Assembly: GCA_013414765.1 (NCBI GenBank)
Contig: CP058708.1
Coordinates: 3,033,553-3,097,552, forward strand
Direction of reading: 5' to 3'
Length of the DNA stretch: 64,000 bases
From: Candidatus Accumulibacter cognatus
GTDB lineage: Bacteria; Pseudomonadota; Gammaproteobacteria; Burkholderiales; Rhodocyclaceae
This document shows positions 12,421-34,193 of this stretch, in pieces. The notes beneath the pieces are model-generated. The model was not told where the DNA came from and did not search any database. It saw only the letters and a program-made list of their open reading frames with translations. The position numbers and the translations under genes were made by a program. Position 1 is the stretch's first letter, and every line of letters begins with the position of its first letter.

Positions 12421-12461
12421 TAAGTTTACAATTGGCCTCCCTTTGGTTCACAACCTAGGCA

Positions 12462-17219: not shown

Positions 17220-18735
17220 GTAACTACTCAGGTCGGCTGGCACGCTTGATGCTTTTAATTCGGCATGGACGAACTTCCCGACCTTGAAAAGCTGAGCGTT
17301 GCCGAGAAGGAGCAGTTGATCCGTGAGCTGTGGCCGCTGCGGGCGCTGGTTCGTGATCTGGCGGCGCAAGTGACAGCCCTTCAATTGAAGGTCACGGAAC
17401 TGGAAGCGCGGCTGGCGACCAACAGTCGAAATTCGAGCAAGCCACCGTCTTCGGACGGTCTGAACAAGCCGCAGCCCAAATCTCTGCGCAAATGCGGGGA
17501 ACGCCCGACGGGCGGGCAGAAAGGGCACCAGGGGCATGGTCTCAAGAAGGTTGCCGAACCGGATCGGATCGTGACGCATGCGCCACCGTCGCACTGCGCA
17601 GAGTGCCAGCGTCCCTTGCCCGAGAGATCGGTGGTCGAAACCCGTCAGGTGTTCGATTTGCCGCCGTTGCGCTTCGAGGTGACGGAGCATCAGGTTCTGG
17701 CGGCGCAGTGCGCCTGCGGCAAGATTTGCCGCGGCGAGTTTCCTCCCGGCATTTCTGCGCCGGTGCAGTATGGTCCGGCGGCCATGGCTGCCGCTGTTCA
17801 TCTCACGCACCACCACATGATGCCGGTACAACGCACGGCGGCGTTGATGGGCGATTTCTTTGGCCTGCCGATGGCTGAGGCGACGGTGCTGGCGGCCAGC
17901 GAAGAGGCGGCTGTTCGCCTGGCGCCGACCGTGGCCTTGATGGGTGAAGCCATCCAAACGGCCGAGGTCGCTCATGCGGACGAAACCGGGATGCGGGTGG
18001 CCGGTAAGCTGCACTGGATGCACGCGCTGGTGACGGCGACGCTCACCTGGGTCGGCTGTCACGAGAAACGGGGCAAGCGGGCCTTCGATGCGCTGGGGAT
18101 TCTCCCCGGCTTTCTGGGCACACTGATCCACGACGGCTGGAAACCTTACCGCGATCTGCTGTGCAAGCACGGGCTGTGCAATGCCCATCACCTGCGGGAA
18201 TTGACCTATCTTTTCGAGGAACTCCAGCAGGCTTGGGCAGGCCGCCTGATCGAACTTCTGGTGGCTGCCTGCCATGAGGTGAACCAGGCGGGCGGTTCGC
18301 TACCCGTCGAACGCGTTGCGCTGTGGCGTAACCGATATACCGAAATTCTCAGCGAAGGCGAGGTCCTCAATCCGCAGGCGGAAAAATCGGGGAAGCGCGG
18401 ACGAACACGACAGAGCAAGGCGACCAACCTCCTCTGGCGCTTGCGCACCTATGCCGATGATGTCTGGCGCTTCGCTTCTGACCCCAGCGTCCCGTTCTCC
18501 AACAACCTTGCCGAGCAGGCGGTTCGCATGCCGAAGGTCAAACAGAAGATCTCCGGCGGCTTCCGGACCAGAAACGGCGCCGATACCTTTTGCACGATCC
18601 GTTCCTACCTTGCCACCCTGCACAAGCAAGGGAGCAATCTCTTTCACGCCCTCACGCTGACTTTCCAAGGCCAACCTCCTCAGCCTCGTTTGGCTTGACC
18701 TACACAGCCCTTGGCTGGGGCTACTGAGTAGTTAC
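17220..18735 (+). mobile_element. IS66-family insertion sequence, copy 1 (1516 bp)
   Basis: Ends are the inverted repeat GTAACTACTCAG (17220-17231) and its complement (18724-18735). A single transposase gene fills it. The same 1516-bp length and the same protein occur at 31497-33012 in opposite orientation. The flanking eight bases do not match, so no target duplication remains here. Confidence 0.93.
17265..18698 (+). CDS. tnpC: IS66-family transposase (TnpC type)
   Basis: A 477-residue DDE transposase. N-terminal leucine-zipper region (LRALVRDLAAQVTALQLKV), the linker NSSKPPSSDGLNKPQ, a CxxC-type zinc finger (CAECQRPL and CACGKIC), then the catalytic core with HADETGMRV, IHDGWKPY and SNNLAEQAVRMPKV, ending in the IS66 C-terminal motif region. 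Intact. The TnpA/TnpB partners of some IS66 elements are absent, as in single-gene members. Identical in protein to the copy at 31534-32967. Confidence 0.95.
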   Translation: MDELPDLEKLSVAEKEQLIRELWPLRALVRDLAAQVTALQLKVTELEARLATNSRNSSKPPSSDGLNKPQPKSLRKCGERPTGGQKGHQGHGLKKVAEPDRIVTHAPPSHCAECQRPLPERSVVETRQVFDLPPLRFEVTEHQVLAAQCACGKICRGEFPPGISAPVQYGPAAMAAAVHLTHHHMMPVQRTAALMGDFFGLPMAEATVLAASEEAAVRLAPTVALMGEAIQTAEVAHADETGMRVAGKLHWMHALVTATLTWVGCHEKRGKRAFDALGILPGFLGTLIHDGWKPYRDLLCKHGLCNAHHLRELTYLFEELQQAWAGRLIELLVAACHEVNQAGGSLPVERVALWRNRYTEILSEGEVLNPQAEKSGKRGRTRQSKATNLLWRLRTYADDVWRFASDPSVPFSNNLAEQAVRMPKVKQKISGGFRTRNGADTFCTIRSYLATLHKQGSNLFHALTLTFQGQPPQPRLA

Positions 18736-19117: not shown

Positions 19118-20359
19118 ATGTTAGGGATGAAGCTCGGTACTGATGAAGGAAGTCACGTTCGTCTCGAGGCCAGTCACCTGGAAGATATCCAACTTGCTTC
19201 GAGCAAGATGACGGGTGCGGACCGCCGGGCGTTTCAGGCGGAGATGGCGTTGAAGTACTGTGGCGGCAATCCTCGACGCGCGGAGGACGTCTTCGGATGG
19301 AGCCGGAAGGCGGTGCAGCTTGGCTTGCACGAGAAGCGTAGCGGGATGGTTTGTTTGGGGCATCACCAGTTCTGCTGCGGAGCCAAATTGTGGGAAGAGA
19401 AGCACCCGGAGGTGGCACAGGCCCTCTGGGCAGTGGCAGGCAGCCATTCCCAACAGGATCCGACCTTTCGCACGACGCTGTCGTTCACCCGCTTGACGGC
19501 CGAGGAAGCGATCAAGCAGTTGCGGGCGCAAGGATTTGCCGAGGACGTGCTGCCCTCCAGGAGCTGCATGTCGGAAGTGTTGAACCGTAATGGGTACCGG
19601 CTGCGTCCGGTGATCAAGGCCAAACCCCAAAAAAAGTCCCCGAAACCGACGCCATCTTTACCAACCTCCAGCGACAGGACCGGGCTTGCGAAGGCAAAGC
19701 CGTGATGCGCTTGAGCATCGACTGCAAGGCGACGGTGAAGATTGGCGAGTACTCGCGAGGCGGCCAGACGCGGGGCGACCCTAAAGCGGCTGACCACGAT
19801 ATGGGATGCGAGGAAAAACACACCCCGTTTGGCGTGGTCAACGAAGACAGCGGACAACTGCACCTGTCCTTCGGAAGCTCGGCCAAGACCAGCGATTTCC
19901 TCGTCGACAGCCTCTACGCCTGGTGGAAGTGTCAATCGCCGGAGGAGCAGGCTCGTGTCACGGACCTGCAGATCAAGACCGATAACGGGCCGGAGAGCAG
20001 CGGCCGACGCACCCAATTCCTCAAGCGAATGGTCGGAGTTTGCCGATCACACCGGCAAGTCCATCCACCTTCTGTACTATCCGCCCTACCACAGCAAATA
20101 CAATCCCGTCGAGCGTTGCTGGGGAATCCTCGAAAAGCACTGGAACGGCGCCAAACTGACCGATACGCAAACGATGCTCGAGTGGGCCAAGAGCATGACC
20201 TGGAAAGGGCTTCATCCCATCGTCGAGTTGAGCCGCACAGCCTATCAGAAAGGAGTTTCCCTCGGCAAAGACGCCATGCAAGCTGTCGAATCCAGACTGG
20301 AACGAAACCCGCTTCTACCCAAGTGGGACATCTTGATCCGACCGGCTTGCTTGGTATAA
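19118..20359 (+). pseudogene. ISAzo13-family transposase with a -1 slip site and a second frameshift
   Basis: The frame from the ATG at 19118 covers an N-terminal helix-turn-helix part (AEDVFGWSRKAVQLGL). A first shift falls at A-AAA-AAG (19630-19636), correctly phased for programmed -1 frameshifting, and continues with ETDAIFTNLQRQDRA, the DDE-domain start with SIDCKATVKIGEYSRGG and ADHD. A second shift near 20034 (an extra G in GGTCGGAG) moves the end, ADHTGKSIHLLYYPPYHSKY and NPVERCWGIL, to another frame. The first shift may be natural; the second looks like inactivation or a sequencing indel. Confidence 0.8.
19630..19636 (+). promoter_or_regulatory. Candidate programmed -1 ribosomal frameshift site
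   Basis: A-AAA-AAG in the X-XXY-YYZ phase of the upstream transposase frame; a -1 slip there leads exactly into the frame encoding the catalytic domain. Related transposases carry an equivalent conserved KKIPETDAIF-like join. Confidence 0.55.
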
Positions 20360-20378
20360 GGATTTGCGGAGATCACCT

Positions 20379-20581
20379 AAGGTCCATGGCAGCGAGACCC
20401 AGAACCCCAGCGAAGCGATGAACTCCGCTGACAGCGCAAGGTGTTCCTTGACGAAGAACGTACCGACGATGTTCGTGACACCGGACAAGCCGGCGGCCAG
20501 ATAGATCGTCAGCGGCGGCAGGGTCTCACGCCAAGTCAGGCGCTGTTCGCAAGTGGCATCACCGGCGAATGCCCTAGGCAT
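20379..20581 (-). pseudogene. MFS transporter, N-terminal fragment
   Basis: The first 68 codons of a membrane transporter: a cytoplasmic lead (MPRAFAGDATCEQRLTWRE), then a first helix TIYLAAGLSGVTNIVGTFFV and the loop SAEFIASLGFWVSLPWTL, which resembles BT1-type major facilitator proteins. The ISAzo13 right end cuts it at 20378. Its start overlaps the TauD gene end by eight bases, so it was the last cotranscribed gene of the cluster and probably the exporter. Family assignment rests on a short segment. Confidence 0.6.
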
Positions 20582-21440
20582 GCGAAGAGACCGTTTCGGT
20601 GCCCACCAGCGTCGCGCCGCGCATCACGCGCCTGTGGCATGCGAGGTCGTAGGGGGTCACCTTATGCATCGTCCAGCGGTTGTCCCAAATGAGTACGTCT
20701 CCCGGGAGCCAGCGATGGAGGTACACGAAACGATCGGCGCTCGCCCACTCGGTGAGTTCTTCAACAAGCGCTCGGGAGTTGTTGTACGACAGACCGTCAA
20801 TGTGCGCCATGTAGGGCGGGCTTAGGAATAGCGACCGCCGGCCATCGGAATGGCGCCACACGAGCGGATGCGACGCTTCAGGCAGCCGAGCCGCCTCGAG
20901 CGGCGTGACCGGCGGCATGCCACAACACTCGATCATGTGCGCGAAGCTATGGCGACAGATCAGGCCTTCGATCGTCGACCTCAGCGTCGGCGGCAGAGTT
21001 ACGTAAGCTAGTCGCAGGTCGGCGAACACGGTGTCGCCGCCAATCGGAGGTACGACAAGTGCGCGCAGTACGACGCCACGGTTGGGCTTCGCGCGGTAAC
21101 AGCCGTCGACGTGCCAAAACCAGTTCATCTTTAGCAGCTTGACGCGTTCGTGACCGAGCGGCAGCAATGCGCTGTCATCGGCGGTGTTGGACGCACCATA
21201 GATGCACGAGCTCTCGGCCGCGCTAGCCCCTGAAGCAAAGATCGCCGGTGTGCCGAAGTGAGCGGCGAACGCCGCATGCGCGGGATCGTCGATCGACTGG
21301 TCGCGCAATAGCAGCACGCGGTATGACCACCAAGCATCCAGGATCTGTGCGACGTCCTCCCTTGGCAGCGGCCGGCGCAAGTCGATACCGTCGATCTGCG
21401 CGCCGATCGTGTCGGTGAGGGGTCGCACTCTCAGCGCCAT
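20574..21440 (-). CDS. TauD/TfdA-family Fe(II)/2-oxoglutarate dioxygenase
   Basis: A 288-residue non-haem iron oxygenase. The iron ligands H110-x-D112 (WFWHVDGCY) and H259 (RWTMHK) and the 2-oxoglutarate-binding arginine (CHRRVMRG, about R270-R274) are all visible, and the length is typical. Members hydroxylate, desaturate or halogen-independently oxidise small molecules and peptides. Here it is the second-last gene of the lanthipeptide operon, 22 bases after the 674-residue protein gene, so hydroxylation of the modified peptide is the likely role. The substrate is inferred. No strong ribosome-binding site is seen before the ATG. Confidence 0.87.
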   Translation of the reverse strand: MALRVRPLTDTIGAQIDGIDLRRPLPREDVAQILDAWWSYRVLLLRDQSIDDPAHAAFAAHFGTPAIFASGASAAESSCIYGASNTADDSALLPLGHERVKLLKMNWFWHVDGCYRAKPNRGVVLRALVVPPIGGDTVFADLRLAYVTLPPTLRSTIEGLICRHSFAHMIECCGMPPVTPLEAARLPEASHPLVWRHSDGRRSLFLSPPYMAHIDGLSYNNSRALVEELTEWASADRFVYLHRWLPGDVLIWDNRWTMHKVTPYDLACHRRVMRGATLVGTETVSSHA

Positions 21441-21462
21441 GGAGGAGCTGTTTTCGGGCTCA

Positions 21463-23487
21463 TCATTCCTGCGCGAGTCGGGAGCGCATCACGCCCGAGA
21501 ACGTCAGCAGCGCCAGTGTCGTCACGATCCAGCCGAGCGTCGCATAGAGAGCCTTCAAGAACTGGTACAGCGCCACTTCCCAGTCCCGCGGGCGCGGCGT
21601 CGCCGCCTCGACCGCGCCGATATCACACTTGCCTTCTTCGCGCAGGTCCACTAGCGGTACGAACACATCAGCCGCGTAGATCAGCAGCCGGCCGAATGTG
21701 ACAGCAATGGCTACCGCCGAGGGCTGCGCGGGCGATTTCTGGGTCAAGCCACAGGCGATGTCGCCAACGGCTGCATCGCTCGCATGCGCGGCAAACCTCG
21801 GTGATTCGCCTATCTTGACCCAACTCGCAACTGGCGTTTGCGCAATGACCATCGCGTTGCGGTGGTCCATCCAACCGAACAGACCCGCGCCGAGTATGAT
21901 CGACAACAACAACGTAGCTAGCGCACTGATGGGCGAAAGGCCGAAATCGAAGAAAAAGCCGTAGAAGCGAGCCGCCACATATACAGGCGAGTACAACAAG
22001 CGGCGCGAGCATGGCTGGAGCTTCCAGCGCGACTTGGCGTCGAAGAGTGCCTTTCTCGATAGCACCTTCCAAGCACCAGCTTCGTTGCCATGGGCAGCTA
22101 AGACGCTAGCCAGCTGGGTGAATGGTTGCGGCCGATACGCTGACCGGGATTGGCCTACACGTTTCCCGGGGTCGCCCGGCAACCAGCTATCGAAGCGACC
22201 ATCGATGCCGGATTCCCAGCCAGTGTTGTCTACGCGCCCGTATCGAAACCCATCGAGGAGGATGGACTTTGCGCCTGCGTACCCGGAAGGGCTGTCGCGC
22301 AACGATGCACACTGTGCGTCGCGAAAGTCCATGTCGCCGCGGAATTCGTTCTCGCTCAGCGAGATCGTGCTGCCAATATGCGCGCCGCTTAGGTCGAGGG
22401 ACACTAGTCCGTCCGGTTCGCGGTGCTTGAACCATGTATCGAGCTGGTTACACCTGTCAACGCGCACATGCGTGATCTCAATCTTTCCCGCTACGTGCAT
22501 GTCCTGGAGCCAAAGCCTGCCTTCGACGCGCACCATACCGCTTTGATCGCCGTCGACCGCTCGCTGGCCAAGCGTGAACCAGCTGCCGATCGCTGCCCCG
22601 GCTGCGTACAACGCGAAGCCCGATTCTGGAGCCAAGTGGGCGCCGTAGAGATCGAACGATCCGCTTATCTGACAACGCATCATCCAGATCGCTCCGGCGC
22701 ATTTGAACATACTGGGCGTGCCGTGCAGACCGGCGATGGTCAAGCTCCCTGCGATGCGTGCTCTTTCAAGGGAGACCGCGTGCGCTCGGGCGAGACCCGC
22801 GACCCTCGCTGCACGCAGGTATATATCGCCATCGACGCTGGCCGCATCGAGGAGGATGCCACCCTCAATAGACGGGAGACGGTCGCCCGGCGCGTCCCGG
22901 CTCATGACCGCGCCGCCGATTCTACTGGCGCATAGGTTGAGAGCCCAGTCCCACTCCGACATGTTCGAGAACCGGAATCCCTCTGGAACCGATCGTTGGG
23001 GCGCGCGCAAATGGATGCCGTCGGCCAGAACGTCACCTTCGATGACAGAGCGCGACAGTTTGCACCAGCACAGCGCTTCGTCGCTGTCTCCGAACGGCTG
23101 CACTGCTTGGAGATCGACAGGTCCGTGCACACACGCCGCCACTGCGCGTAGGTGAGTGAGCCGTGAGCCTACCAAGGACAGCGAGCCGATGTGTGCGTCG
23201 GACAGATCCACATTCGGACGCCGCGCATTCGCTGGCTCATCGCCGTCGACGATGAAGCAACACTCGTTGAAGCACAACGCTGGCAGCGGAGCCTGGCTCG
23301 ATCCGCACCAGCGCAGGTCGAGGGCACCGAAAATCGTCGCACCCCTCATGCGAATACTGGCGGCCTTGACTTGCAAGACTAGGTCCCGCAGTGCCGGTGC
23401 ATCGATCAGCCTGTCAGACCGGTCCGAGTAGTCGGCCTCCAAACCCTTTTCGACGCAATCCCTCAGGTATTCGATGGCATCGGACAT
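21463..23487 (-). CDS. Large unrecognised protein with beta-helix-like repeats and C-terminal membrane helices
   Basis: A 674-residue protein I do not recognise by name. Residues about 40-430 show loosely repeated short strands of the type D-L-S-G/D-A-x-I-G-x-x-x-L (for example VDLSDAHIGSLSLVGSRL and LDLSGAHIGSTISLSENEF), as in right-handed beta-helices related to pentapeptide-repeat proteins. Two to three membrane helices follow (LATLLLSIILGAGLFGW, VAIAVTFGRLLIYAADVF, LYATLGWIVTTLALLTF). A GGAGA six bases ahead supports the ATG. Located inside the lanthipeptide operon; immunity, export or membrane anchoring of the synthetase are possibilities. A broken paralog lies at 33354-34118. Confidence 0.7.
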   Translation of the reverse strand: MSDAIEYLRDCVEKGLEADYSDRSDRLIDAPALRDLVLQVKAASIRMRGATIFGALDLRWCGSSQAPLPALCFNECCFIVDGDEPANARRPNVDLSDAHIGSLSLVGSRLTHLRAVAACVHGPVDLQAVQPFGDSDEALCWCKLSRSVIEGDVLADGIHLRAPQRSVPEGFRFSNMSEWDWALNLCASRIGGAVMSRDAPGDRLPSIEGGILLDAASVDGDIYLRAARVAGLARAHAVSLERARIAGSLTIAGLHGTPSMFKCAGAIWMMRCQISGSFDLYGAHLAPESGFALYAAGAAIGSWFTLGQRAVDGDQSGMVRVEGRLWLQDMHVAGKIEITHVRVDRCNQLDTWFKHREPDGLVSLDLSGAHIGSTISLSENEFRGDMDFRDAQCASLRDSPSGYAGAKSILLDGFRYGRVDNTGWESGIDGRFDSWLPGDPGKRVGQSRSAYRPQPFTQLASVLAAHGNEAGAWKVLSRKALFDAKSRWKLQPCSRRLLYSPVYVAARFYGFFFDFGLSPISALATLLLSIILGAGLFGWMDHRNAMVIAQTPVASWVKIGESPRFAAHASDAAVGDIACGLTQKSPAQPSAVAIAVTFGRLLIYAADVFVPLVDLREEGKCDIGAVEAATPRPRDWEVALYQFLKALYATLGWIVTTLALLTFSGVMRSRLAQE

Positions 23488-23502
23488 TGGGCTTCTCCCG
23501 GT

Positions 23503-25260
23503 TCAGGTTGCCAGCATTACTTCGCGCAGCGCCAGCAGCATGACAAACAGCTTGTCGTTGGATGGTCGTGCGAAATGCTCGGCGAGCGCCAGGAAGTAGC
23601 GGCCAGTTTCGGAGCTCGCGTCACTCGCATCGTACATCAACTGCGCGATGTGGTCGAGCCGCTCGCCGTACGCCGCGGGATCGGGTGACAAAGCATCGCG
23701 CTTGCCGATCAGGGAGACGTCGCGCAGGTCGCGAGCGCCAGCGGCCATGCGAGCAGCGATTGCGTCAAGATCAGCATCGCCCGTAGCAGCATACCCACTC
23801 TGGATCACATGGTCACGACGCAACAGCTGCAGAAACGGTCGACCCAGTGTGGTCAAGAGATTGGCAGTCGTTTGGCCTTCGATCACGCAGGGCAGATCAG
23901 CATCACTGACGAAGCGGTGAAAAGCATCCATTGACACAGGTCCGAGTTCGACCAAGTGCACCGCTGCGTTGCCGTGGCGCGCGAGCGCCACCCGCAGCGA
24001 CTCGTCGAGGTTGCGCGACCGCTTCTTGCTGCCTACGCTTACCCGATGGACGACTAGCGATACGTCGCGGCAGCGAGCATGGAGCCAACGGCCCAGCTCG
24101 CGCGTGCGGCTCGAGAGGGTGTCCGGTCGCAATCGGCCCGCGTCGACATCGTCGGCGTGGCGTCGCGCCAGTGCGGTCGCGAGTGCAGGCAGCGCGTGCT
24201 CGCATGCCGCTAGATCCTGAGATAGCGCCTCGGCGAGATCCGCCCAGTCGGGCAGGTCCTCTGACGGATTGAACGAGCAAAGCAGAACCGCGCTGCGCCG
24301 TTGGTACGCGATGCATAGACCCAGAACCGAGCACGACAGGACGATGTTCGCAGCATCAGGTGCGAAGTGCTGGAGGCCGTAGACTGGCCAAAGTAGGAGG
24401 CGTCCGTTGCTCCGTGTAGTGAGAACCGTCAACGCGTTGTCCATGCGACGGGCCAGCTCCGCATCGAAGCTCTGCTGCCGTGCGTACCAACGCCATAACG
24501 ACGACTCGGTTGGATAGTGCAGCGACGGTGGCGGCCGGATCGCCAGGGTCCGCAGTTCAGGCCAGGACTGAAGCGGATAGAGGTGGCGGCCGTCGGGTTG
24601 CTCGATGCGCGAGCACTCGTAGTACGCGTCACGGCGCGCCGCCGGCGGGTCGTCCCAGAGGTAGGGCTGTAGGCGCAGGAAGAAGCGCACGTTGAGCGCC
24701 GCCGCTGCGTTGAACGCAAGGTCATCAGCGCCACCAGTGAAACCGAACGCGATCGCCTCGCGTAGTTCTCCGGCGCGCTGCAGCGGTAGGAAGCGGATCT
24801 CGCCGCACGACCCGTAGCTGGTTAATTCGTCGTCCAGCCGCCGCGGGTCGACGCCCGCAAACATCAGCGCTAACTTGTCAGCCGTGCTGCCCAGCAGGGC
24901 ACGCCCCTGGTCGGCGTAGACGACTACGACCCAGCCTCGAAACGCCGTCAAGTCGATCAACCGCCGCAGCAGCAGTACGGTCGAGGCCTGGTGCCCGAGG
25001 TTCTTCGTGCCATCAACGAATACGCGCCATTCGGTCTGCTCTGCCAGTAACGACAGCATCTCGCTGAGATCGCGGGTCAACGCGTCGCGCTCGGTTCCAG
25101 TGGTCCAGCTGCGGACTGCGGCCGCAAAGCGCGCCGCAGCGGTTGCGAGCGAAGGGTCAGTGTCCGAGGCCAGCACGTTCAACGCAGCTGCACGAAGCCC
25201 GGGTGGCGAAACGGCGCCCCCGGTGATTGCCTCGCCATCGCGGCCATCGGATCGTTGCAC
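23503..25260 (-). CDS. Unrecognised 585-residue protein of the lanthipeptide operon
   Basis: No signal peptide or membrane helix. An N-terminal segment VFVDGTKNLGHQASTVLLL and a C-terminal PCVIEGQTTANLLTTLGRPF recall glycosyltransferase-like (GT-B) proteins, where glycine-rich loops of this sort bind nucleotide sugars, but I cannot confirm the family. Two starts are possible: GTG at 25260, overlapping the PhyH gene by 82 bases, or GTG at 25176, three bases after the PhyH stop; the second is tidier. It is placed between two oxygenase-related genes, so a tailoring enzyme, perhaps glycosylation of the peptide, is a reasonable guess. Confidence 0.65.
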   Translation of the reverse strand: MQRSDGRDGEAITGGAVSPPGLRAAALNVLASDTDPSLATAAARFAAAVRSWTTGTERDALTRDLSEMLSLLAEQTEWRVFVDGTKNLGHQASTVLLLRRLIDLTAFRGWVVVVYADQGRALLGSTADKLALMFAGVDPRRLDDELTSYGSCGEIRFLPLQRAGELREAIAFGFTGGADDLAFNAAAALNVRFFLRLQPYLWDDPPAARRDAYYECSRIEQPDGRHLYPLQSWPELRTLAIRPPPSLHYPTESSLWRWYARQQSFDAELARRMDNALTVLTTRSNGRLLLWPVYGLQHFAPDAANIVLSCSVLGLCIAYQRRSAVLLCSFNPSEDLPDWADLAEALSQDLAACEHALPALATALARRHADDVDAGRLRPDTLSSRTRELGRWLHARCRDVSLVVHRVSVGSKKRSRNLDESLRVALARHGNAAVHLVELGPVSMDAFHRFVSDADLPCVIEGQTTANLLTTLGRPFLQLLRRDHVIQSGYAATGDADLDAIAARMAAGARDLRDVSLIGKRDALSPDPAAYGERLDHIAQLMYDASDASSETGRYFLALAEHFARPSNDKLFVMLLALREVMLAT

Positions 25261-26015
25261 GCCTCCTCACCGGTGAGCTTGTCGACCTCGCACAGCCCCG
25301 CCTCGGGCCGTGCCGCGCAACACGCGTCGTCGCCAAAGAACCGCAGCGAGATCGTGCGCCGCCGTTCATTAGCGCGTGTGGGCGCGCCACCGTGCAGCAT
25401 TGCTGGATGGAAAACGACGAGATCGCCGGGGTTTACGTCCCAAGACACGATCGGCCAGCGCGCGCGCTGCGCCTCGATGTCTGGCAGCGACGGCCATACT
25501 CCGGGAGCGAACATCGCCGCCACGGGGTCCACGGGGTCGAACGCGGTCGGGTTGTACAACGGCCCGCGGTGCGATCCGAGGACAAACTCGAGCGATCGTT
25601 CGCGCGGCACAGGGTCGAGGTTGAGCCACGCGGTGGCCAGGTGGTCGCCGGCCATCGGCACGTAAGATAAGTCCTGGTGCCACGGCGTGCGTTGCGTCTC
25701 GCCGCCGTGCTTGAGCCAGATTTGTTCGTAAAGGAGCCACAACGAGCGGCTCCCCATCAGGTCTGCGACCAGATCGGTCAAACTGGTGCCGTACAGTAGC
25801 GGCCGATAGGCAGGCCATGCGGAGGGGTTAGCGTGGTCCTGATAGAAGGAACCCGGTTGTCCACCGAGCACACGGTTGGCGTTCGGACCAGGGTGTTCCA
25901 TCGACCATCGATACGCCCGTTCTGCGAGTTGCATGCCGCCAGGATCGAACGCACCGCGCACGACGGTAACGCCGTCACGCACGAATTCGGTGTGGTGCCG
26001 GCCAATGCTGGTCAT
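25179..26015 (-). CDS. Phytanoyl-CoA dioxygenase (PhyH)-family Fe(II)/2-oxoglutarate oxygenase
   Basis: A 278-residue non-haem iron oxygenase. H113-x-D115 (PWHQDLSY) and H208 (PAMLHGGAPTRANERRR) supply the iron ligands, and R220 or R225 in TISLRFFG should bind 2-oxoglutarate. Its start overlaps the synthetase stop by four bases, which ties it to lanthipeptide maturation. Family members hydroxylate carbon next to functional groups in many natural products; here a peptide side chain is the inferred target. Intact. Confidence 0.88.
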   Translation of the reverse strand: MTSIGRHHTEFVRDGVTVVRGAFDPGGMQLAERAYRWSMEHPGPNANRVLGGQPGSFYQDHANPSAWPAYRPLLYGTSLTDLVADLMGSRSLWLLYEQIWLKHGGETQRTPWHQDLSYVPMAGDHLATAWLNLDPVPRERSLEFVLGSHRGPLYNPTAFDPVDPVAAMFAPGVWPSLPDIEAQRARWPIVSWDVNPGDLVVFHPAMLHGGAPTRANERRRTISLRFFGDDACCAARPEAGLCEVDKLTGEEACNDPMAAMARQSPGAPFRHPGFVQLR

Positions 26016-28732
26016 AACCCGACAGACGGCTCAGCATCACAAGCGCCAGCAAAGAATTTGCTCCGTCGGCGGGGCGGAGTTGCTCGCCGTGTCGCTGGCG
26101 TGAGCTCACGCGGCGAGGCGATGCGAGTGAGTGCGAGGGACGAAAGCAGTGCCTCGCGCGCGCCAGCGGCGTGCCGGGCTAGCGCGCTCGCTGGCCCGAG
26201 GAAGCCGATCCACAGATCAGGTGTGACGATTGCCGGATCGTCAGAGGTCCACGCGCAGCAACCATCAACTTTGACGTGCAGGCAGCGTAGCGCGCGGGCG
26301 ACCTTCTGCGCGCGGGAGTGTGCAAGAGCTGAGAACCGGGGTACTGCCTGAAGCATCTGCCACAATTCAAGGTGCCCGGCCAGACCATGGCAGAAGGTGG
26401 GCGTGCCAGCCGCCGGCGCGCGCTCGAGCGTGTGCACAGCCCAATCGATCTCAGCTCGCAGCGTGGGGTAGTCGCCAACACCGTTCAGCACCGCCCAAAG
26501 GTAGCCCGCGACGCCGTGACACCAGTTACCTACAGCGTGGTGGCGCGAATCGCCGGGTCCAATTCGTAGCGCGGTGCCATCGCTGGTACGCGCGCGCCGG
26601 GCAATTGCAGACCAGGTTTCGCAAGCCTGCTCAACAGCCGTGGTGTCGCCAGTGGCTCGGCCCCAAACGGCGTGTGCGAGCGCGATACCGGCCGAGCCGT
26701 GCGCGCAGCCGAAAAACACGGTGTCGCTATCCGGCGCGACCGTCCACACTGGAACACCATCGACTTGCGATTTTCGTGCGTGTAGGTAGTTGAGCGCATT
26801 GGCCACCAGATCGAGCGGCCAGTCCTCGCGCAGAAGGTCGCGGAGCAAGACGGCAGCCCAGATCACCCCTGCGATGCCCGAGAACAGGTCCACTTCGCGG
26901 CAGTCGCGCGCGGCGGCCTCGAAGCGCACTCGGGCCGAGCGAACGAGGCGTTCATCGCTTAATCGCTGCCCAGAGGCGGCGAGTGCTAGAGCGACACCGG
27001 CGTTTCCCGTGAACGGACCGGCGGCCCTACCGTCCGCACTGCGCGACGCGAGCCAGGTTGCGCCGGCCGCCACGGCAGCGTCGAAGTCCGTGCGCCTGCA
27101 CGCGTCGCCGACGGCGAGCAGCCCGAGCACGATGCCTGCGGCACCGAGGTTGATCCCCTCACAGTCGTGCGCGCGCATGAAGTGCTCGTTACGCCAGCAC
27201 GCACCGGCAGCGCGCGGCTGCACGAAGGCCATGCTCGCGTGCGCCGCTTCGATAGCGGCGCGCCGGCACCAACGCGTGAGGGCGTCGGCGGCGGGGAGGT
27301 CGCACTCGTCCACTACTTTCCAGTCGGATGCGCTCGTACGCAACACTTGGCCGACCGCGGCCGCGTCAGGTCGCAACGAGGCGTCGCTTGCCTGCCAGCG
27401 CTGCACGCAACGCGCGGCCTCATGCAGCCCCTCATTGCGCAACAGCGATGCCGCCCGGCCGATCGGCAGCAGGCCAGGCGGCGTATCCAGAAACGCCTGC
27501 ACAACGCAACCACCGAGCGCGAAGACGTCACGCGCGGTGGCAGCGGGCGAGATACGTCCTCGAATCCCAGGGTCGAGGTAGCCGGGCGTTCCGCCCGGCC
27601 GCATCAACGCGCCTATGTGCGTTGCCAGTTCGAAGTCGATCAGGCCGACACCGCCAGCGTGTCGGATGGCGTTTTCCAGCTTGACATCGCCGTGGACCAA
27701 ACCGGCCGCATGCACCTGTGCGACCGCTTCAGCTAGCAGTGGCAAGGCTGCAATGCGCTCGGTGCGAGATAGCTCGCAGACCAGCTCGCCGCGGAAATCG
27801 GCCATCACCAGCAACGGCTGGGATTCGTCGACAAACACGAGCGGAGCGGGCACGAGTCCGGGTTGGTGCTGCAGTAAGCGCAGCGCGGCGAATTCGTTGC
27901 GCATCAGGTCGCGGATGTCAAAGCCCATCGCATCGCCCGCGGCGCCGCGGCGCCCGGCTTTGATCACTACGGTTTGCAGCGATTGGACCTGGACCGAGAG
28001 CCAGGTAGCCGCGCGCGGCGTTTGCCCCAAGCGCACGAGCGGCAGGTACTCTGATCCGGCCAGCCAGAGCGGCTGGTTCGACATGACACGCGGGGGTTCC
28101 GGTGGAACACCCGGCAGCGGTGGTGCAGGTTTGTCGACATCCGTCTTCACGACGGCGGCCCCTGCGTCAGCGACGAGCGAACCATTGGGACCCCGCCACC
28201 CAAAGCGGTGCACGCCGACGCCGTCGACCACCTCGTCGGTGACGCGGTACACGCCATAACGGAACGATACCGCGCCGGCGGCGCGGAGCTGCCGATCCGT
28301 GATCACCTCCGGCCCCCGACTGATTGGCCACGCGGCATCGAGCGCGACTATCGCCGCGCGCGCACTGGCGATATCGGGGGAGTAAACGGTGAGCACCTTG
28401 CCGAGTTGATTAGCGCCAGCGTCGCCCGAGTTAAGCAACACAACATCTTCAAGATGCCGCAGCACCTTGAAGGGCACCCGCAGACCGGCGAGCAATCCGG
28501 CAAGTTCGCGCAGCATTCTTGCTGCCTCGGCAGCTGATGCACTGACGTGGATCTTCCAACCCTGCGCAAGTGACTCGCTGCCCACAGGATCGAAGAAACG
28601 CCATCGCAATGGCCGATCGACCCAATCAACGGTACGCCACCCGTGGGCGAACACCTCGCCCAGAAACGAGAGCGTGGCGCAATAATCCTGTGCCGCGCTG
28701 TCGTTCACGTCCGTGGCCGGCGCGGCTTGCAT
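26012..28732 (-). CDS. Lanthipeptide synthetase, lyase-kinase-cyclase type (LanKC/LanL)
   Basis: A 906-residue three-domain enzyme that phosphorylates Ser/Thr of a precursor peptide, eliminates phosphate and cyclises Cys onto the alkene. Residues 1-200 are the lyase-like part (GWKIHVSASAAEAARML, K60; GKVLTVYSPD, K112). The kinase spans about 220-470: ATP lysine in VVIKAG (K258), catalytic loop HGDVKLEN (D349, N354), and DFE in place of DFG (366-368). The cyclase covers about 500-880, with GCAHGSAG, NWCHGVAGY (C738) and FCHGLAGH (C781, H782), i.e. all three zinc ligands. Those ligands mark class IV (LanL); class III enzymes lack them. Start 25 bases after the precursor gene. Confidence 0.9.
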   Translation of the reverse strand: MQAAPATDVNDSAAQDYCATLSFLGEVFAHGWRTVDWVDRPLRWRFFDPVGSESLAQGWKIHVSASAAEAARMLRELAGLLAGLRVPFKVLRHLEDVVLLNSGDAGANQLGKVLTVYSPDIASARAAIVALDAAWPISRGPEVITDRQLRAAGAVSFRYGVYRVTDEVVDGVGVHRFGWRGPNGSLVADAGAAVVKTDVDKPAPPLPGVPPEPPRVMSNQPLWLAGSEYLPLVRLGQTPRAATWLSVQVQSLQTVVIKAGRRGAAGDAMGFDIRDLMRNEFAALRLLQHQPGLVPAPLVFVDESQPLLVMADFRGELVCELSRTERIAALPLLAEAVAQVHAAGLVHGDVKLENAIRHAGGVGLIDFELATHIGALMRPGGTPGYLDPGIRGRISPAATARDVFALGGCVVQAFLDTPPGLLPIGRAASLLRNEGLHEAARCVQRWQASDASLRPDAAAVGQVLRTSASDWKVVDECDLPAADALTRWCRRAAIEAAHASMAFVQPRAAGACWRNEHFMRAHDCEGINLGAAGIVLGLLAVGDACRRTDFDAAVAAGATWLASRSADGRAAGPFTGNAGVALALAASGQRLSDERLVRSARVRFEAAARDCREVDLFSGIAGVIWAAVLLRDLLREDWPLDLVANALNYLHARKSQVDGVPVWTVAPDSDTVFFGCAHGSAGIALAHAVWGRATGDTTAVEQACETWSAIARRARTSDGTALRIGPGDSRHHAVGNWCHGVAGYLWAVLNGVGDYPTLRAEIDWAVHTLERAPAAGTPTFCHGLAGHLELWQMLQAVPRFSALAHSRAQKVARALRCLHVKVDGCCAWTSDDPAIVTPDLWIGFLGPASALARHAAGAREALLSSLALTRIASPRELTPATRRATPPRRRSKFFAGACDAEPSVGL

Positions 28733-28757
28733 ACGCCAGCCTCGACAAGTCGAAAAG

Positions 28758-28958
28758 TCAACCGTGGCGCGTCGCTTGGCAGGTGTGCCAGGGGCAGGCG
28801 TGGACTAGGCCGCCGCGATTCTCAGACTCCAGGTTCGCGGTGGGAGGTACCGATCTCGACAACGCGTCCAGTAGTTGTGAGCGGTCGCTGCATCCGGCGT
28901 ACCCTGCGTCACGCATCTCATCCACCTTAGAACGAACCATATCCCGAAGTTGCTCCAT
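28758..28958 (-). CDS. Candidate lanthipeptide precursor peptide
   Basis: A 66-residue peptide, MEQLRDMVRSKVDEMRDAGY at the start, with a helical acidic/basic leader containing SQLLDALSRS, a Gly-Gly at 49-50 (SENRGG), and a 16-residue tail LVHACPWHTCQATRHG. The tail has two cysteines (C55, C60) and two threonines (T59, T63), enough for one or two lanthionine rings, plus Trp, Pro and three His for oxidative tailoring. An AAGGAG eight bases upstream gives a strong start. It is the first gene of the leftward operon, directly ahead of the synthetase. Not similar to a precursor I know; the cleavage point is inferred. Confidence 0.7.
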   Translation of the reverse strand: MEQLRDMVRSKVDEMRDAGYAGCSDRSQLLDALSRSVPPTANLESENRGGLVHACPWHTCQATRHG

Positions 28959-29085
28959 TTTCCGATCTCCTTGTAGAGGAATGTTGCCCGTCAACCTGCT
29001 AAGCATGCCTGATCCACTTTGGCGGCGCGATGTTAGCATATTGCATGTATGATGTGATAGTCGGAGTGATGCAATAGGAATCGTC
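28959..29085. promoter_or_regulatory. Divergent promoter region of the lanthipeptide cluster
   Basis: 127 bases between the precursor gene (leftward) and the P450 gene (rightward). The middle is AT-rich (GCATATTGCATGTATGATG near 29036), unlike the surrounding GC-rich genes, and should hold both promoters. The P450 start is preceded by TAGGAA seven bases ahead. No operator could be assigned. Confidence 0.5.
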
Positions 29086-30324
29086 ATGTGTCTGCCCGGA
29101 GAGCCTGCAAGCGCGTTATTGCCGATCTTCGATCCCGCCTTTAAGGCAGACCCTCACCCGTTCTATGCAGCGCTGCGCAGACTCGCCGGCGTAAGCAGGA
29201 TGCGCCTGCCTTCCGGCACGGGGGTCTGGATCGTCTTGCGCTACGATCACGCGCGCAAGCTGCTAAGGGATCCCCGACTGTCGAAGGTGCCGCAGCGCGA
29301 GGACGGCGCCGCGCCGAAGCACGCGCTGTTCAACCACTTGCTGACAATGGACCCGCCGTCGCACGCCGTGGCACGCAGCGTCCTCGCCCCGTGCTTCTCG
29401 CCGCGTGTCCTGCGCGCGTTCGAGCCGCGCGTTTCAGGCCTCGTGGACGCGCTGTTGCAGCGCATACCATGCGACGACGAGCCGTTCGACGTTCTGACCG
29501 CATTTGCCGGACCGCTCGCGCAGTCAGTGGTGTGCGAACTGGTCGGCGTACCCGACGACGTGCGCGAATCGCTCGCGCGCGGACTCGACGACCTCGACCG
29601 CGCCGACTTCGATGCGCCCGATCGGGTACCTGGAATCACGCAGCACCTGTTCGATACACTGCTGGGCGTGTGCAATCGACGCGCGAGCTTGCCGCCCGAG
29701 AGCCTGCTGGCCACCCTGTGCGCAGCGCGTGACCACGGAAGCATCCCTCCTGAACAGGTGGTTTCGCTAACGTACCTCGTTTTGGCCGCCGGCCGCGAGA
29801 CTGCAGCCAACCTAATCGCCAACGGCCTCCTCAGGCTGCTGACCCGGCCCCCCACTTGGGCTGAACTGGCGCGCGCGCCCCAACACGCTGGGGCGCTAGT
29901 GGAAGAGTTGCTGCGGCTCGAAAGTCCATTGGAGATGGCGACCGCGCGCTACGCGATCGCTGACATCGCGATCGACGACACAACGATTCGCGCCGGCGAT
30001 ACGGTATTCGTCGGACTTGCCGCGAGCAATCGTGACCCGCTCGCGTTCGAGCGGCCGGACGAGCTTGACCTCTCACGCACCGCAGGTAGCAAGCACCTCG
30101 CGTTCGGTTACGGGATCCACAGATGCCTCGGCGCGATCCTGGCGCGCATCGAGGCGCGCATCGCGCTAGCTAGGCTCGCCGCCCACTTCCCGTCGTTGGA
30201 ACTCGCGGTACCCGCTGGCCAGCTTGCCTGGAAGCCGGGGCTGATCACGCGCGGACTACAGAACCTGCCAGTGCGCCGTGGTGCGCCCGGCCGAAAAACA
30301 TTCGCCGACCTTCTCCCGGGATGA
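29086..30324 (+). CDS. Cytochrome P450
   Basis: A 412-residue soluble haem monooxygenase of bacterial class. I-helix oxygen-binding region AAGRETAAN (T239), K-helix E274-x-x-R277 (EELLR), and the haem loop FGYGIHRCLG with thiolate C347 are intact. It is transcribed away from the precursor/synthetase operon from the shared 127-bp region, and is probably a tailoring enzyme that hydroxylates or cross-links the peptide. Redox partners are not encoded nearby. Its stop overlaps an ATG (ATGA at 30321) of a 32-codon frame of unclear meaning, just before the ISKra4 insertion. Confidence 0.92.
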   Translation: MCLPGEPASALLPIFDPAFKADPHPFYAALRRLAGVSRMRLPSGTGVWIVLRYDHARKLLRDPRLSKVPQREDGAAPKHALFNHLLTMDPPSHAVARSVLAPCFSPRVLRAFEPRVSGLVDALLQRIPCDDEPFDVLTAFAGPLAQSVVCELVGVPDDVRESLARGLDDLDRADFDAPDRVPGITQHLFDTLLGVCNRRASLPPESLLATLCAARDHGSIPPEQVVSLTYLVLAAGRETAANLIANGLLRLLTRPPTWAELARAPQHAGALVEELLRLESPLEMATARYAIADIAIDDTTIRAGDTVFVGLAASNRDPLAFERPDELDLSRTAGSKHLAFGYGIHRCLGAILARIEARIALARLAAHFPSLELAVPAGQLAWKPGLITRGLQNLPVRRGAPGRKTFADLLPG

Positions 30325-31496
30325 GTTGCGATGCGCGGAGTGCTCAAAGCGAGCTGCATATTCGCATGTTTTCGATAACCCGAAAGAGGCCCAACGACCA
30401 GGGGTGTGATTCAAAGTGATGCGTCGTTGAGATGACCCCTTTATGCGGCTTCTTTTTCGACACCCCGCCAATAGGCGTCCCATTCCCGGTTGGCCCGGTT
30501 AAGCCGTAGGGCTAACATGGTCTCGATATGATCTGGTGACCACCAAGCACCGGGAAGCTTGATCCGCTCCTGGATAACGTAGCGGTGGGCGCTCTCGATT
30601 TCCCCCGACCCAATGGGTAGCCCCTGCTTGATCGCGCCTTGGTAGTCCAGTTGATCCCGGCGGTTACGAATATAGCGGTCACAGGCGGTGGCGGGGTCGT
30701 CGCTATTGGTCTCTACGAACGGTGCCAACGCTTCCAGCACAGCACCGGATTGGTTCGCCTTGAGCCGACTTTTTTGTTCTTCCAACCAGGCTCGGGGATC
30801 ATTGGCGGCGCAGACCTTGGACGCTTCGCCGAGGTACTCGCAGAGATGGAAGAAATCCACCAAATAGGCTCCTTGCGCACCGAATTGGATCTCCTCCTGC
30901 GTGACAATCCACGACGCGCCATCGCCCACCGCATGCAGGTAACTCCCCGGGCCAAACCCCGCTTTGGCCGCACAACGCCACCACTGTCGCCCGCTTTCCT
31001 CGACCCCACCGGCAAAATTTCCACCAAATATCGGGGTGACGCTGCCTTTCGGATGCACGAGACTCAGGCGAACTTCTTTCCAGGCCAAACGCTTCCCTTT
31101 GCGTTTGTCTTCGGCATCCGAAGAAATTTCCACCACCGGGACCATCGAACCATCCATCTCGCCGATAAAGGTGACTCCGGCCATCGTCCCGGCCACAATC
31201 TCCCGCTTGGCCTCTTGCTCGCAAATGATTGGCGGGTGATGTTCGGTGATCCGTTGAATCGTGCTTACCGGCATCTCGATCCCATAGTGTTCCTTCAGCT
31301 TTTCCGGCACCCGCCCAAAAGCCGCATCTGCCCCAAAATCACTCATCACCCGTTGCAACGGCTGCGAACTGCCCCGGCAACTGATCCCCGCACGGGTGCT
31401 GAAACGCCGCTCGATCCGTGTGCCATTCCGCCACAGAGGCTCTACCACATCGACTTTACCGAAGGTCGTGTGCCAATAGAGTTTTTTTACCCGCCG

Positions 31497-33012
31497 GTAA
31501 CTACTCAGTAGCCCCAGCCAAGGGCTGTGTAGGTCAAGCCAAACGAGGCTGAGGAGGTTGGCCTTGGAAAGTCAGCGTGAGGGCGTGAAAGAGATTGCTC
31601 CCTTGCTTGTGCAGGGTGGCAAGGTAGGAACGGATCGTGCAAAAGGTATCGGCGCCGTTTCTGGTCCGGAAGCCGCCGGAGATCTTCTGTTTGACCTTCG
31701 GCATGCGAACCGCCTGCTCGGCAAGGTTGTTGGAGAACGGGACGCTGGGGTCAGAAGCGAAGCGCCAGACATCATCGGCATAGGTGCGCAAGCGCCAGAG
31801 GAGGTTGGTCGCCTTGCTCTGTCGTGTTCGTCCGCGCTTCCCCGATTTTTCCGCCTGCGGATTGAGGACCTCGCCTTCGCTGAGAATTTCGGTATATCGG
31901 TTACGCCACAGCGCAACGCGTTCGACGGGTAGCGAACCGCCCGCCTGGTTCACCTCATGGCAGGCAGCCACCAGAAGTTCGATCAGGCGGCCTGCCCAAG
32001 CCTGCTGGAGTTCCTCGAAAAGATAGGTCAATTCCCGCAGGTGATGGGCATTGCACAGCCCGTGCTTGCACAGCAGATCGCGGTAAGGTTTCCAGCCGTC
32101 GTGGATCAGTGTGCCCAGAAAGCCGGGGAGAATCCCCAGCGCATCGAAGGCCCGCTTGCCCCGTTTCTCGTGACAGCCGACCCAGGTGAGCGTCGCCGTC
32201 ACCAGCGCGTGCATCCAGTGCAGCTTACCGGCCACCCGCATCCCGGTTTCGTCCGCATGAGCGACCTCGGCCGTTTGGATGGCTTCACCCATCAAGGCCA
32301 CGGTCGGCGCCAGGCGAACAGCCGCCTCTTCGCTGGCCGCCAGCACCGTCGCCTCAGCCATCGGCAGGCCAAAGAAATCGCCCATCAACGCCGCCGTGCG
32401 TTGTACCGGCATCATGTGGTGGTGCGTGAGATGAACAGCGGCAGCCATGGCCGCCGGACCATACTGCACCGGCGCAGAAATGCCGGGAGGAAACTCGCCG
32501 CGGCAAATCTTGCCGCAGGCGCACTGCGCCGCCAGAACCTGATGCTCCGTCACCTCGAAGCGCAACGGCGGCAAATCGAACACCTGACGGGTTTCGACCA
32601 CCGATCTCTCGGGCAAGGGACGCTGGCACTCTGCGCAGTGCGACGGTGGCGCATGCGTCACGATCCGATCCGGTTCGGCAACCTTCTTGAGACCATGCCC
32701 CTGGTGCCCTTTCTGCCCGCCCGTCGGGCGTTCCCCGCATTTGCGCAGAGATTTGGGCTGCGGCTTGTTCAGACCGTCCGAAGACGGTGGCTTGCTCGAA
32801 TTTCGACTGTTGGTCGCCAGCCGCGCTTCCAGTTCCGTGACCTTCAATTGAAGGGCTGTCACTTGCGCCGCCAGATCACGAACCAGCGCCCGCAGCGGCC
32901 ACAGCTCACGGATCAACTGCTCCTTCTCGGCAACGCTCAGCTTTTCAAGGTCGGGAAGTTCGTCCATGCCGAATTAAAAGCATCAAGCGTGCCAGCCGAC
33001 CTGAGTAGTTAC
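31497..33012 (-). mobile_element. IS66-family insertion sequence, copy 2 (1516 bp)
   Basis: Same ends and length as 17220-18735, opposite orientation. Target ACCCGCCG is duplicated at 31489-31496 and 33013-33020, within the ISKra4 transposase gene. Together with copy 1 it brackets most of the lanthipeptide cluster as an inverted pair 12.8 kb apart. Confidence 0.95.
31534..32967 (-). CDS. tnpC: IS66-family transposase, second identical copy
   Basis: A 477-residue protein identical to that encoded at 17265-18698, with the same zipper, zinc-finger and DDE motifs. The lack of any difference means that the two copies are recent duplicates or kept alike by recombination. Intact and possibly active. 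Confidence 0.95.
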   Translation of the reverse strand: MDELPDLEKLSVAEKEQLIRELWPLRALVRDLAAQVTALQLKVTELEARLATNSRNSSKPPSSDGLNKPQPKSLRKCGERPTGGQKGHQGHGLKKVAEPDRIVTHAPPSHCAECQRPLPERSVVETRQVFDLPPLRFEVTEHQVLAAQCACGKICRGEFPPGISAPVQYGPAAMAAAVHLTHHHMMPVQRTAALMGDFFGLPMAEATVLAASEEAAVRLAPTVALMGEAIQTAEVAHADETGMRVAGKLHWMHALVTATLTWVGCHEKRGKRAFDALGILPGFLGTLIHDGWKPYRDLLCKHGLCNAHHLRELTYLFEELQQAWAGRLIELLVAACHEVNQAGGSLPVERVALWRNRYTEILSEGEVLNPQAEKSGKRGRTRQSKATNLLWRLRTYADDVWRFASDPSVPFSNNLAEQAVRMPKVKQKISGGFRTRNGADTFCTIRSYLATLHKQGSNLFHALTLTFQGQPPQPRLA

Positions 33013-33353: not shown

Positions 33354-34118
33354 ATGTCAATTGACAAGCGGCACGCGTATCTGATCAGTTGTACGGCGTT
33401 GGGACTTGAGGCTGACTTCGAATCGTTCGAGGGCGCCACCGGTTATGCAGATGTCGAAGCGCTCTGGCTCCGCAATCTGCTCCTGGGCTTGCCATTAGCA
33501 AGAGATCATCACTCCGAGATAGGGGGAACTTCATGAGCACTATAAGCCCCTTGTTCCTCCATCTGATGGACCGGCCGCGGTCACTCCGTATGGCGTCAGC
33601 ATTCGCCACGCTTGCATCGTCGGGGCGCTCGATCTATCGGGCTGTGGAACAGCAGATCGCCCATTGCCTGCCCTTACATGTCGGGATTGTCACTTTCGGG
33701 ATACCGATGAGATAGAAGTGGGGACGGATGCCAACAAGGTATCGACGAGCCTCAATCTGTCACATGCGCATCTGGCACGGCTCTCGCTGCAGGGGTCTCG
33801 ATTGACGCATCTACGAGGCATAGGCATGAAAGTGGATGTGGCGGTAGATATCTCTCGTATAGAGCCTCTCGACGATTTTCGTGAACAGAAATGGCCAGGC
33901 GTGGAACCGGGGGTATTCATCCGCGAAACAGAGGGTCAAGCTAAGGCTAGGCAGGAAGGAATCGACAAGGGGGGTTCCGCACTACCTAGCCCTCCGCCTC
34001 TCCCCGCGCAACTCCAAGCATGCTCGAACGGTGACTGGCCTTCTTCGTCGCGCGAACATTGCTGGTGTGATCTGTCGCGATCCGTAGTTGGGGGACAGTT
34101 CATTGCTGACGGAGCAAC
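33354..34118 (+). pseudogene. Frameshifted, truncated paralog of the 674-residue cluster protein
   Basis: Starts at 33354 (MSIDKRHAYLISCTALGLEA) behind GAGGGGAG. The first frame ends at 33536 after IGGTS; dropping one G from the GGGGG at 33522-33526 continues into VSIRHACIVGALDLSGCG, LNLSHAHLARLSLQGSRLTHL and CWCDLSRSVVGG, each matching the front half of the 21463-23487 protein (for example LDLRWCGSSQ, VDLSDAHIGSLSLVGSRLTH, CWCKLSRSVIEG). An extra insert of about 50 residues precedes CWC. It is cut at 34118 by an ISAzo13 remnant, so the back half and membrane part are missing. Before ISKra4 arrived it stood directly after the P450 gene. Confidence 0.82.
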
Positions 34119-34193
34119 AAAACCCGCTCCTCCCCAAGTGGGACATCTTGATCCGACCGACCTGCCCGGTATGAATATTCGCAGAAATCACCT
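34119..34193 (+). mobile_element. ISAzo13 right-end remnant (75 bp)
   Basis: Matches the last part of the 19054-20378 element with scattered differences: CCCAAGTGGGACATCTTGAT followed by CCGACC and the ending AAATCACCT. Same orientation. It forms the right edge of the island. Confidence 0.85.

Follow-up and report, generated by a model that had tools for sequence, protein, structure and literature searches.

A probable class IV-like lanthipeptide family with a conserved core peptide in Candidatus Accumulibacter cognatus and two further genomes

Background

Among described lanthionine synthetases, those of class IV (LanL, NF038150; the VenL type) and class III (LanKC) are the closest counterparts of an enzyme encoded in the genome of Candidatus Accumulibacter cognatus, which is the subject of this study together with the genes around it. 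The class IV enzymes combine lyase, kinase and cyclase domains in this order, and we take the His of the Cys/Cys/His zinc site to be the feature that separates their cyclase from that of class III. According to the excerpted text of PMC7268733, members of both classes come for the most part from Actinobacteria and Firmicutes, and as of 2020 class IV products had no reported secondary modification. VenL-like lyase domains occur in proteobacteria, among other classes, according to the excerpted text of PMC4159009, and the bare occurrence of a class IV-like lyase domain in a proteobacterium is therefore not new. The locus lies in a stretch of 64,000 nucleotides (GenBank assembly GCA_013414765.1, contig CP058708.1, positions 3,033,553 to 3,097,552, forward strand), here called the window, whose numbering is used throughout; the genome comprises one contig of 5.17 Mb, rated 100% complete. 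A first-pass annotation had interpreted part of the window as a cluster for a lanthipeptide, comprising a class IV-like synthetase, three oxygenases and two large unnamed proteins.

Two further systems bear on the chemistry considered below. Cinnamycin, a class II product, contains some rings in which Cys precedes Thr, and its pathway has an Fe/2-oxoglutarate hydroxylase; NAI-112 is an actinobacterial class III lanthipeptide with a glycosylated Trp. From a comparison of the window with related loci we propose, with a probability of roughly 0.7, that it encodes a new class IV-like lanthipeptide family, whose chemistry we infer to comprise rings that are probably Cys-first, hydroxylation and perhaps glycosylation.

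Results and discussion

A core peptide fixed in three genomes

A collection of species-genome contigs was scanned with exact peptide patterns of the synthetase, a procedure that recovers close relatives only. It returned 14 stretches, two of which encode relatives of the enzyme: L007, from an Azoarcus metagenome-assembled genome (MAG; 54% identity), and L008, from a Proteobacteria MAG (46%). In both, a small open reading frame (ORF) directly before the synthetase gene closes with the pattern CPWxTCxATRHG, which is more than chance would provide; the biosynthetic gene cluster is real. The genes common to the three loci are, in the window:

28758..28958, minus strand: precursor peptide gene, 66 residues, a leader of about 50 residues followed by ...GGLVHACPWHTCQATRHG; AAGGAG ahead of the start codon at 28958; counterparts in both L007 and L008
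28761..28796, minus strand: conserved core segment CPWHTCQATRHG (CPWxTCxATRHG, 3/3 loci), from the alignment, with synonymous codon changes
26012..28732, minus strand: class IV-like lanthionine synthetase, 906 residues, with RamC_N lyase (residues 40-194), kinase (248-419) and LanC-like cyclase (530-794) domains by Pfam and NCBIfam
25179..26015, minus strand: PhyH-type 2-oxoglutarate/Fe(II) oxygenase, 278 residues, in all three loci (Pfam PhyH, E = 3.1e-16)
23503..25260, minus strand: 585-residue protein, possible GT-B glycosyltransferase, in all three loci, outside the Pfam and NCBIfam families

The small gene before the synthetase that the first-pass annotation had proposed as a precursor was thus borne out, with a correction of its size: the longest ORF has 109 residues, the ATG at 28958 that follows AAGGAG gives 66, and the genes in L007 and L008 have the same AAGGAG ahead of their ATG, so that a precursor of 66 rather than 109 residues appears most likely. 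In a small search the window ORF matched those of L007 and L008 with E-values of 2.6e-13 and 5.6e-7, respectively. Ten of the last 13 residues are identical in all three precursors, the remainder of which has diverged, and in each pair of loci the last 13 codons differ by 4-6 synonymous and 3 amino-acid changes; the synonymous changes indicate that the peptide is kept here, and not merely the DNA. In each locus, then, the short ORF next to the synthetase gene has a conserved C-terminal core that contains both Ser/Thr and Cys. A six-frame scan of all loci collected found CPWxTCxATRHG only at these three precursors (each present in two overlapping records), and the viral contigs searched contained no instance. 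A weak Pfam match of the precursor to TTRAP was judged to be due to chance.

Precursor, synthetase, PhyH and 585-residue protein genes occur together in all three loci, with the precursor gene always directly ahead of that of the synthetase. The gene order in L007 is that of the window; in L008 the PhyH gene precedes the precursor gene and the homologue of the 585-residue protein is encoded on the opposite strand, and hence the linkage of the four genes survives rearrangement. The PhyH proteins are 68% (L007) and 59% (L008) identical to that of the window, both match Pfam PhyH, and the motifs WHQD and LHGG, which we take to be the HxD...H iron site, are invariant in the three homologues.

A profile of the synthetase recovered 4 of 96 relatives of one MAG (itself and three distant ones) and, among 149 relatives of the other, the MAG alone. 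The three distant loci (L015, L016 and L017), which come from relatives of the L008 genome, have other precursors and cores:

L015, 8589-8891; L016, 8989-9438; L017, about 8200-8600: precursors of further class IV-like loci, Cys-rich, with leaders that look nitrile-hydratase-like

The core of the L015 precursor is rich in Cys and its leader matches TIGR04351 weakly, below cut-off (E = 2.3e-4); the L016 precursor has TC repeats and gave no match in a family scan, and that of L017 has TC repeats when read by eye. In these stretches of 17-20 kb each, the best matches to the PhyH protein (E = 0.08) and the 585-residue protein (E = 0.5) are not significant. PhyH and the 585-residue protein hence accompany the CPWxTCxATRHG core, being present in 3/3 loci with it and 0/3 without it. 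In L016 a protein that looks like a luciferase-type oxidoreductase (12218-13129) is encoded directly after the class IV-like synthetase.

The cluster appears rare among the genomes searched. In three overlapping whole-genome samples the synthetase was found once in 41, once in 399 and once in 398 genomes, each time in its own, and no plasmid match was obtained at 1e-10. The 585-residue protein was likewise confined to its own genome (1/41 for the protein, 1/299 for its profile). No close synthetase turned up in 40 other genomes, of which 24 belong to the same genus; this fits acquisition from elsewhere without proving it.

The synthetase

All three domains lie in one protein in the order lyase, kinase, cyclase (Pfam RamC_N, E = 3.4e-29; Pkinase, 2.1e-8; LANC_like, 2.2e-26; each above cut-off). 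The NCBIfam class IV model (NF038150), whose cut-off is 650 bits, gives 297.7 bits, and the class III model, whose cut-off is 575, gives 215.6; four relatives reach 342.2, 348.9, 326.0 and 534.0 bits on the class IV model. The active-site motifs are complete in the synthetase and its two close relatives, namely GWKxH, FK and GK of the lyase, Lys, HGD and DFE of the kinase, and AHG with the zinc-binding Cys/Cys/His of the cyclase, to which we assign the roles established for this family. The zinc-ligand positions (Cys738, Cys781 and His782 in the window enzyme) lie in WCHG and CHG motifs that are present in it and in four relatives. In the best PDB relative (PDB: 8car), a class III enzyme, the aligned zinc site lacks the His after the last Cys. 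The higher class IV score, the retained Cys/Cys/His ligands and the lack of this His in 8car lead us to read the enzyme as class IV-like: it probably works like a class IV enzyme, yet stands outside the curated class IV family. The class named in the first-pass annotation is accordingly retained, with the qualification that neither family cut-off is approached.

The 585-residue protein and the comparison with EarP

The second protein that distinguishes these loci has no Pfam or NCBIfam family above cut-off. Its GTG start overlaps the PhyH gene by 82 nt and an ATG lies at codon 68, leaving its N terminus uncertain. By tblastn it is 48% identical to its L007 homologue, and 46% and 31% identical over two parts to that of L008 (aligned identities 48% and 35%). 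The family conserves D-G-T-x-N-x-G-H-Q near the start and E-G-Q ... G-R-P-F near the end; by eye, the former recalls the acceptor end of a GT-B enzyme and the latter its donor end. A profile search of the PDB with the family gave nothing significant (best E = 1.4), and the viral contigs searched contained no relative. The single plasmid match corresponds to the first ~520 residues of a giant protein that carries an Ig-like annotation (L003, 7914-16759; Azospirillum sp. B510 plasmid pAB510d), beside which no lanthipeptide gene is listed in the L003 stretch.

AlphaFold2 models, built from three sequences, were compared with the PDB using Foldseek. For the 585-residue protein, glycogen synthases occupy ranks 1-20, led by the yeast enzyme (E = 2.3e-3, probability 0.60). 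For the 474-residue L008 homologue, EarP bound to EF-P ranks second (E = 2.2e-3) with the highest probability in 50 rows, 0.96, and WecB (0.92) and a polysialyltransferase (0.84) also appear. EarP, WecB, polysialyltransferase and glycogen synthase share the GT-B fold. We therefore lean modestly towards a GT-B glycosyltransferase on the strength of these predicted models.

EarP, the arginine rhamnosyltransferase of EF-P (PF10093; PDB: 5wxk), deserves closer comparison, since besides the fold match the family has a D-x3-[DN]-x-G pattern, seen by eye, and an Arg is invariant in the core peptide here. Profile-based homology between the two was rejected: the family has no Pfam match to EarP, hhalign against the 20 EarP loci, out of 25, retained by a motif filter gave a probability of 0.3%, and the hidden Markov model ranks lie among shuffled sequences. 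Ranked by the EarP profile together with 1000 shuffles and 125 real ORFs (EarP proteins among the latter), three of four family members came at 43, 173 and 192, the fourth being unlisted, and in the reverse comparison the best EarP ranked 22nd. As the profile methods give no link, we retain EarP solely as a lead from the fold comparison. In a by-eye alignment D83 fits D13 of EarP, Asn87 stands at the place of D17, which EarP needs, and the counterpart of E273 is ambiguous. According to the excerpted text of PMC5615199, D13, D17 and E273 of EarP are invariant, and the D17N and E273Q forms behave like the inactive alanine forms, whereas D13N is like wild type. Arginine glycosylation by the 585-residue protein appears improbable. 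EarP itself has no match in the Accumulibacter cognatus genome, and PF10093 was matched in 26 of the 41 genomes searched, including 14 of 24 others of the same genus.

The proposed product and competing explanations

On the reading we favor, the leader would bind the synthetase, whose kinase would phosphorylate the two invariant core threonines, whose lyase would remove the phosphate to yield dehydrobutyrine, and whose cyclase would add the two invariant core cysteines. If both cysteines are used, the rings would be C1-T5 and C6-T9, each with Cys first. PhyH would then hydroxylate a core residue, the 585-residue protein may attach a sugar, for which the invariant Trp, Arg or Thr are candidate acceptors, and a protease encoded elsewhere would remove the leader. 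The Cys-first arrangement is the simplest because the core runs C1-P-W-x-T5, C6-x-A-T9, with each Cys preceding its nearest non-adjacent Thr and with T5 and C6 as neighbors, and because the L007 peptide has no Ser or Thr in the 15 residues ahead of C1. Ring closure by the cyclase would then run in the less usual direction. A fully specified version, in which two Cys-first methyllanthionine rings and PhyH hydroxylation are combined with glycosylation of the invariant Arg by a GT-B enzyme that resembles EarP and belongs to an undescribed family, is a long shot; if true, it would place arginine glycosylation on a ribosomal natural product.

A number of observations weigh against the proposed family and its chemistry. 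The synthetase scores far under the cut-offs of both classes, and the precursor family is known from n=3 loci. The three precursors conserve no spaced Ser/Thr-before-Cys pair of the kind usual in class III/IV cores, the only such pair being the neighbors T5-C6, and the ring argument is weakened where unconserved Ser or Thr residues precede C1: the window peptide has a Ser at a distance of 10 residues, and that of L008 a Ser and a Thr close by. The structure models are weak (mean pLDDT, the predicted local distance difference test, 49.8 for the 585-residue protein and 57.9 for the 474-residue homologue). The former has no Foldseek match under E = 0.001, and its highest probability (0.69) belongs to histidinol dehydrogenase; for the latter, the best E-value, and the sole one under 0.001, is that of an AAA protein (5.3e-4, probability 0.33), many further AAA proteins are in the list, and the methyltransferase MnmC2 has a probability of 0.95. 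Finally, the transporter gene of the row is severed by an ISAzo13-type element, and none of the 20 window proteins scanned is a protease.

These points bear on several rival explanations. With T5 adjoining C6, both Cys preceding a non-adjacent Thr and no spaced Ser/Thr-before-Cys pair conserved, the product could be a linear or mixed dehydropeptide with one ring or none, retaining open dehydrobutyrine or a Cys-Cys disulfide; the zinc-ligand and AHG motifs of the cyclase are nevertheless kept in 5/5 synthetases compared, and we regard this outcome as rather unlikely. A stronger contender, though one we rate below even odds, is that the 585-residue protein is another two-Rossmann protein, for example an epimerase-like one, or a partner protein, rather than a glycosyltransferase: it has no family match, its fold matches are mixed, with AAA best by E-value in the second model, and a related domain heads the giant Azospirillum protein, whereas the highest-probability match of the 474-residue model and the top-ranked matches of the 585-residue model are glycosyltransferases.

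The other two explanations concern the surroundings of the four genes. The P450, TauD and 674-residue proteins might be true tailoring parts, making the product more decorated than in the relatives; the close spacing of the TauD and 674-residue protein genes in the same row and the start of the P450 gene 127 nt from that of the precursor speak for this, and the lack of a match for all three in L007 or L008 speaks against it, and we consider it somewhat less likely than not. We consider it unlikely that the cluster survives here only in a decaying or silent state, its product no longer exported: the ISAzo13 cut in the transporter gene, the two IS66 copies and the lack of a close synthetase in the 40 other genomes would suit it, but the other frames are intact, elsewhere the genome has a transporter paralogue whose frame is open, and the transporter remnant has no match in L007 or L008, where the search was made with the remnant only and not the full transporter.

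Relation to described systems

The proposed family shares with class IV LanL the domain order, the best family score and the three zinc-ligand positions, and differs from it in falling short of the family cut-off, in its Cys-before-Thr core and in its PhyH and GT-B-like partner genes; LanKC of class III (8car and others in the PDB) is set apart by the zinc site and the lower score. Cys-before-Thr rings and an Fe/2-oxoglutarate hydroxylase would recall the cinnamycin type, which has a class II synthetase, another core and other enzymes, and the invariant Trp of the core recalls NAI-112, which is of class III and actinobacterial. The first-pass statement that classes III and IV are mainly actinobacterial agrees with the excerpt of PMC7268733, and its failure to match the gene combination to any known cluster held in the literature searched, which gave no description of the gene set (subscription papers lying mostly outside its reach). 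As far as searched, the CPWxTCxATRHG core family and its link to PhyH and the 585-residue family are new. A fixed core peptide is thus common to three genomes, as are two tailoring-type enzymes, of which one belongs to an unclassified family; the core offers a defined substrate of 12-16 residues.

Variable neighbors and mobile DNA

The row of genes extends beyond the four shared ones. The ORF list has six intact minus-strand frames between 20574 and 28958, for the precursor, synthetase, PhyH, 585-residue, 674-residue and TauD proteins, spaced in this order by +25, -4, -82, +15 and +22 nt, which upholds the leftward operon of six tight or overlapping genes described at first pass; all the genes named there are present, and the synthetase, PhyH, TauD and P450 proteins have Pfam domains over the cut-offs. 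A seventh frame, after the TauD gene, is the cut transporter gene. The remaining features are:

20574..21440, minus strand: TauD/TfdA-type oxygenase, 288 residues (Pfam, E = 9.3e-58); no match in L007/L008
29086..30324, plus strand: cytochrome P450, 412 residues, divergent from the operon, putative pathway member (Pfam p450, E = 2e-22); no match in L007/L008
21463..23487, minus strand: 674-residue protein with hydrophobic C-terminal stretches, bactofilin match sub-threshold only; no match in L007/L008
20381..20581, minus strand: transporter 5' remnant, about 66 residues, BT1/folate-biopterin type of the major facilitator superfamily, 57% identical to a Ruegeria protein, the match ending at 20378
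19118..20380, plus strand: ISAzo13-type element, transposase split over frames, its left limit approximate and its right end the point where the transporter gene is cut
17220..18735, plus strand: IS66-type element, left copy, 1516 nt, with no flanking direct repeat seen
31497..33012, minus strand: IS66-type element, right copy, 1516 nt, same sequence in inverted orientation, bordered by an 8-bp direct repeat

By tblastn at E 0.1, the TauD, P450 and 674-residue proteins and the transporter remnant have no match in L007 or L008; the L007 contig ends a short way upstream of the precursor gene, where a P450 gene is possible. The comparison gives no support for the three oxygenases as one set, PhyH alone recurring. 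Of the two unnamed proteins, the 585-residue one accompanies the synthetase in 3/3 loci, and the 674-residue one, unmatched in both relatives, was discarded as a candidate conserved member. The latter occurs in 1/41 whole genomes, its own, where it is found twice, and has two weak plasmid matches in Streptomyces (about 24%). A broken paralogue of it lies beyond the right IS66 copy (33580-34131, plus strand; 43% over 103 residues, then a further piece).

The left limit set at first pass, 20379, proved to be the end of the ISAzo13-type element, transposase pieces of which lie within 19118-20421; the element cuts the seventh gene of the row. This element end recurs as an 80-nt copy (84%) at 34116-34195, after the broken 674-residue paralogue. 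The Ruegeria homologue of the transporter remnant matches BT1, with fbt under cut-off. The open-frame transporter paralogue, at 5.13 Mb of the genome, is 72% identical to the remnant at the DNA level over 125 nt and is therefore a separate gene rather than a relocated copy of it. The two IS66 copies flank the region; CGGCGGGT stands at either side of the right one as a direct repeat, and the left one has none, which indicates that the right copy inserted by itself; a composite transposon of the two copies is unsupported. Between the P450 gene and the right IS66 copy lies an ISKra4-like transposase, scoring under cut-off, at 30441-31448.

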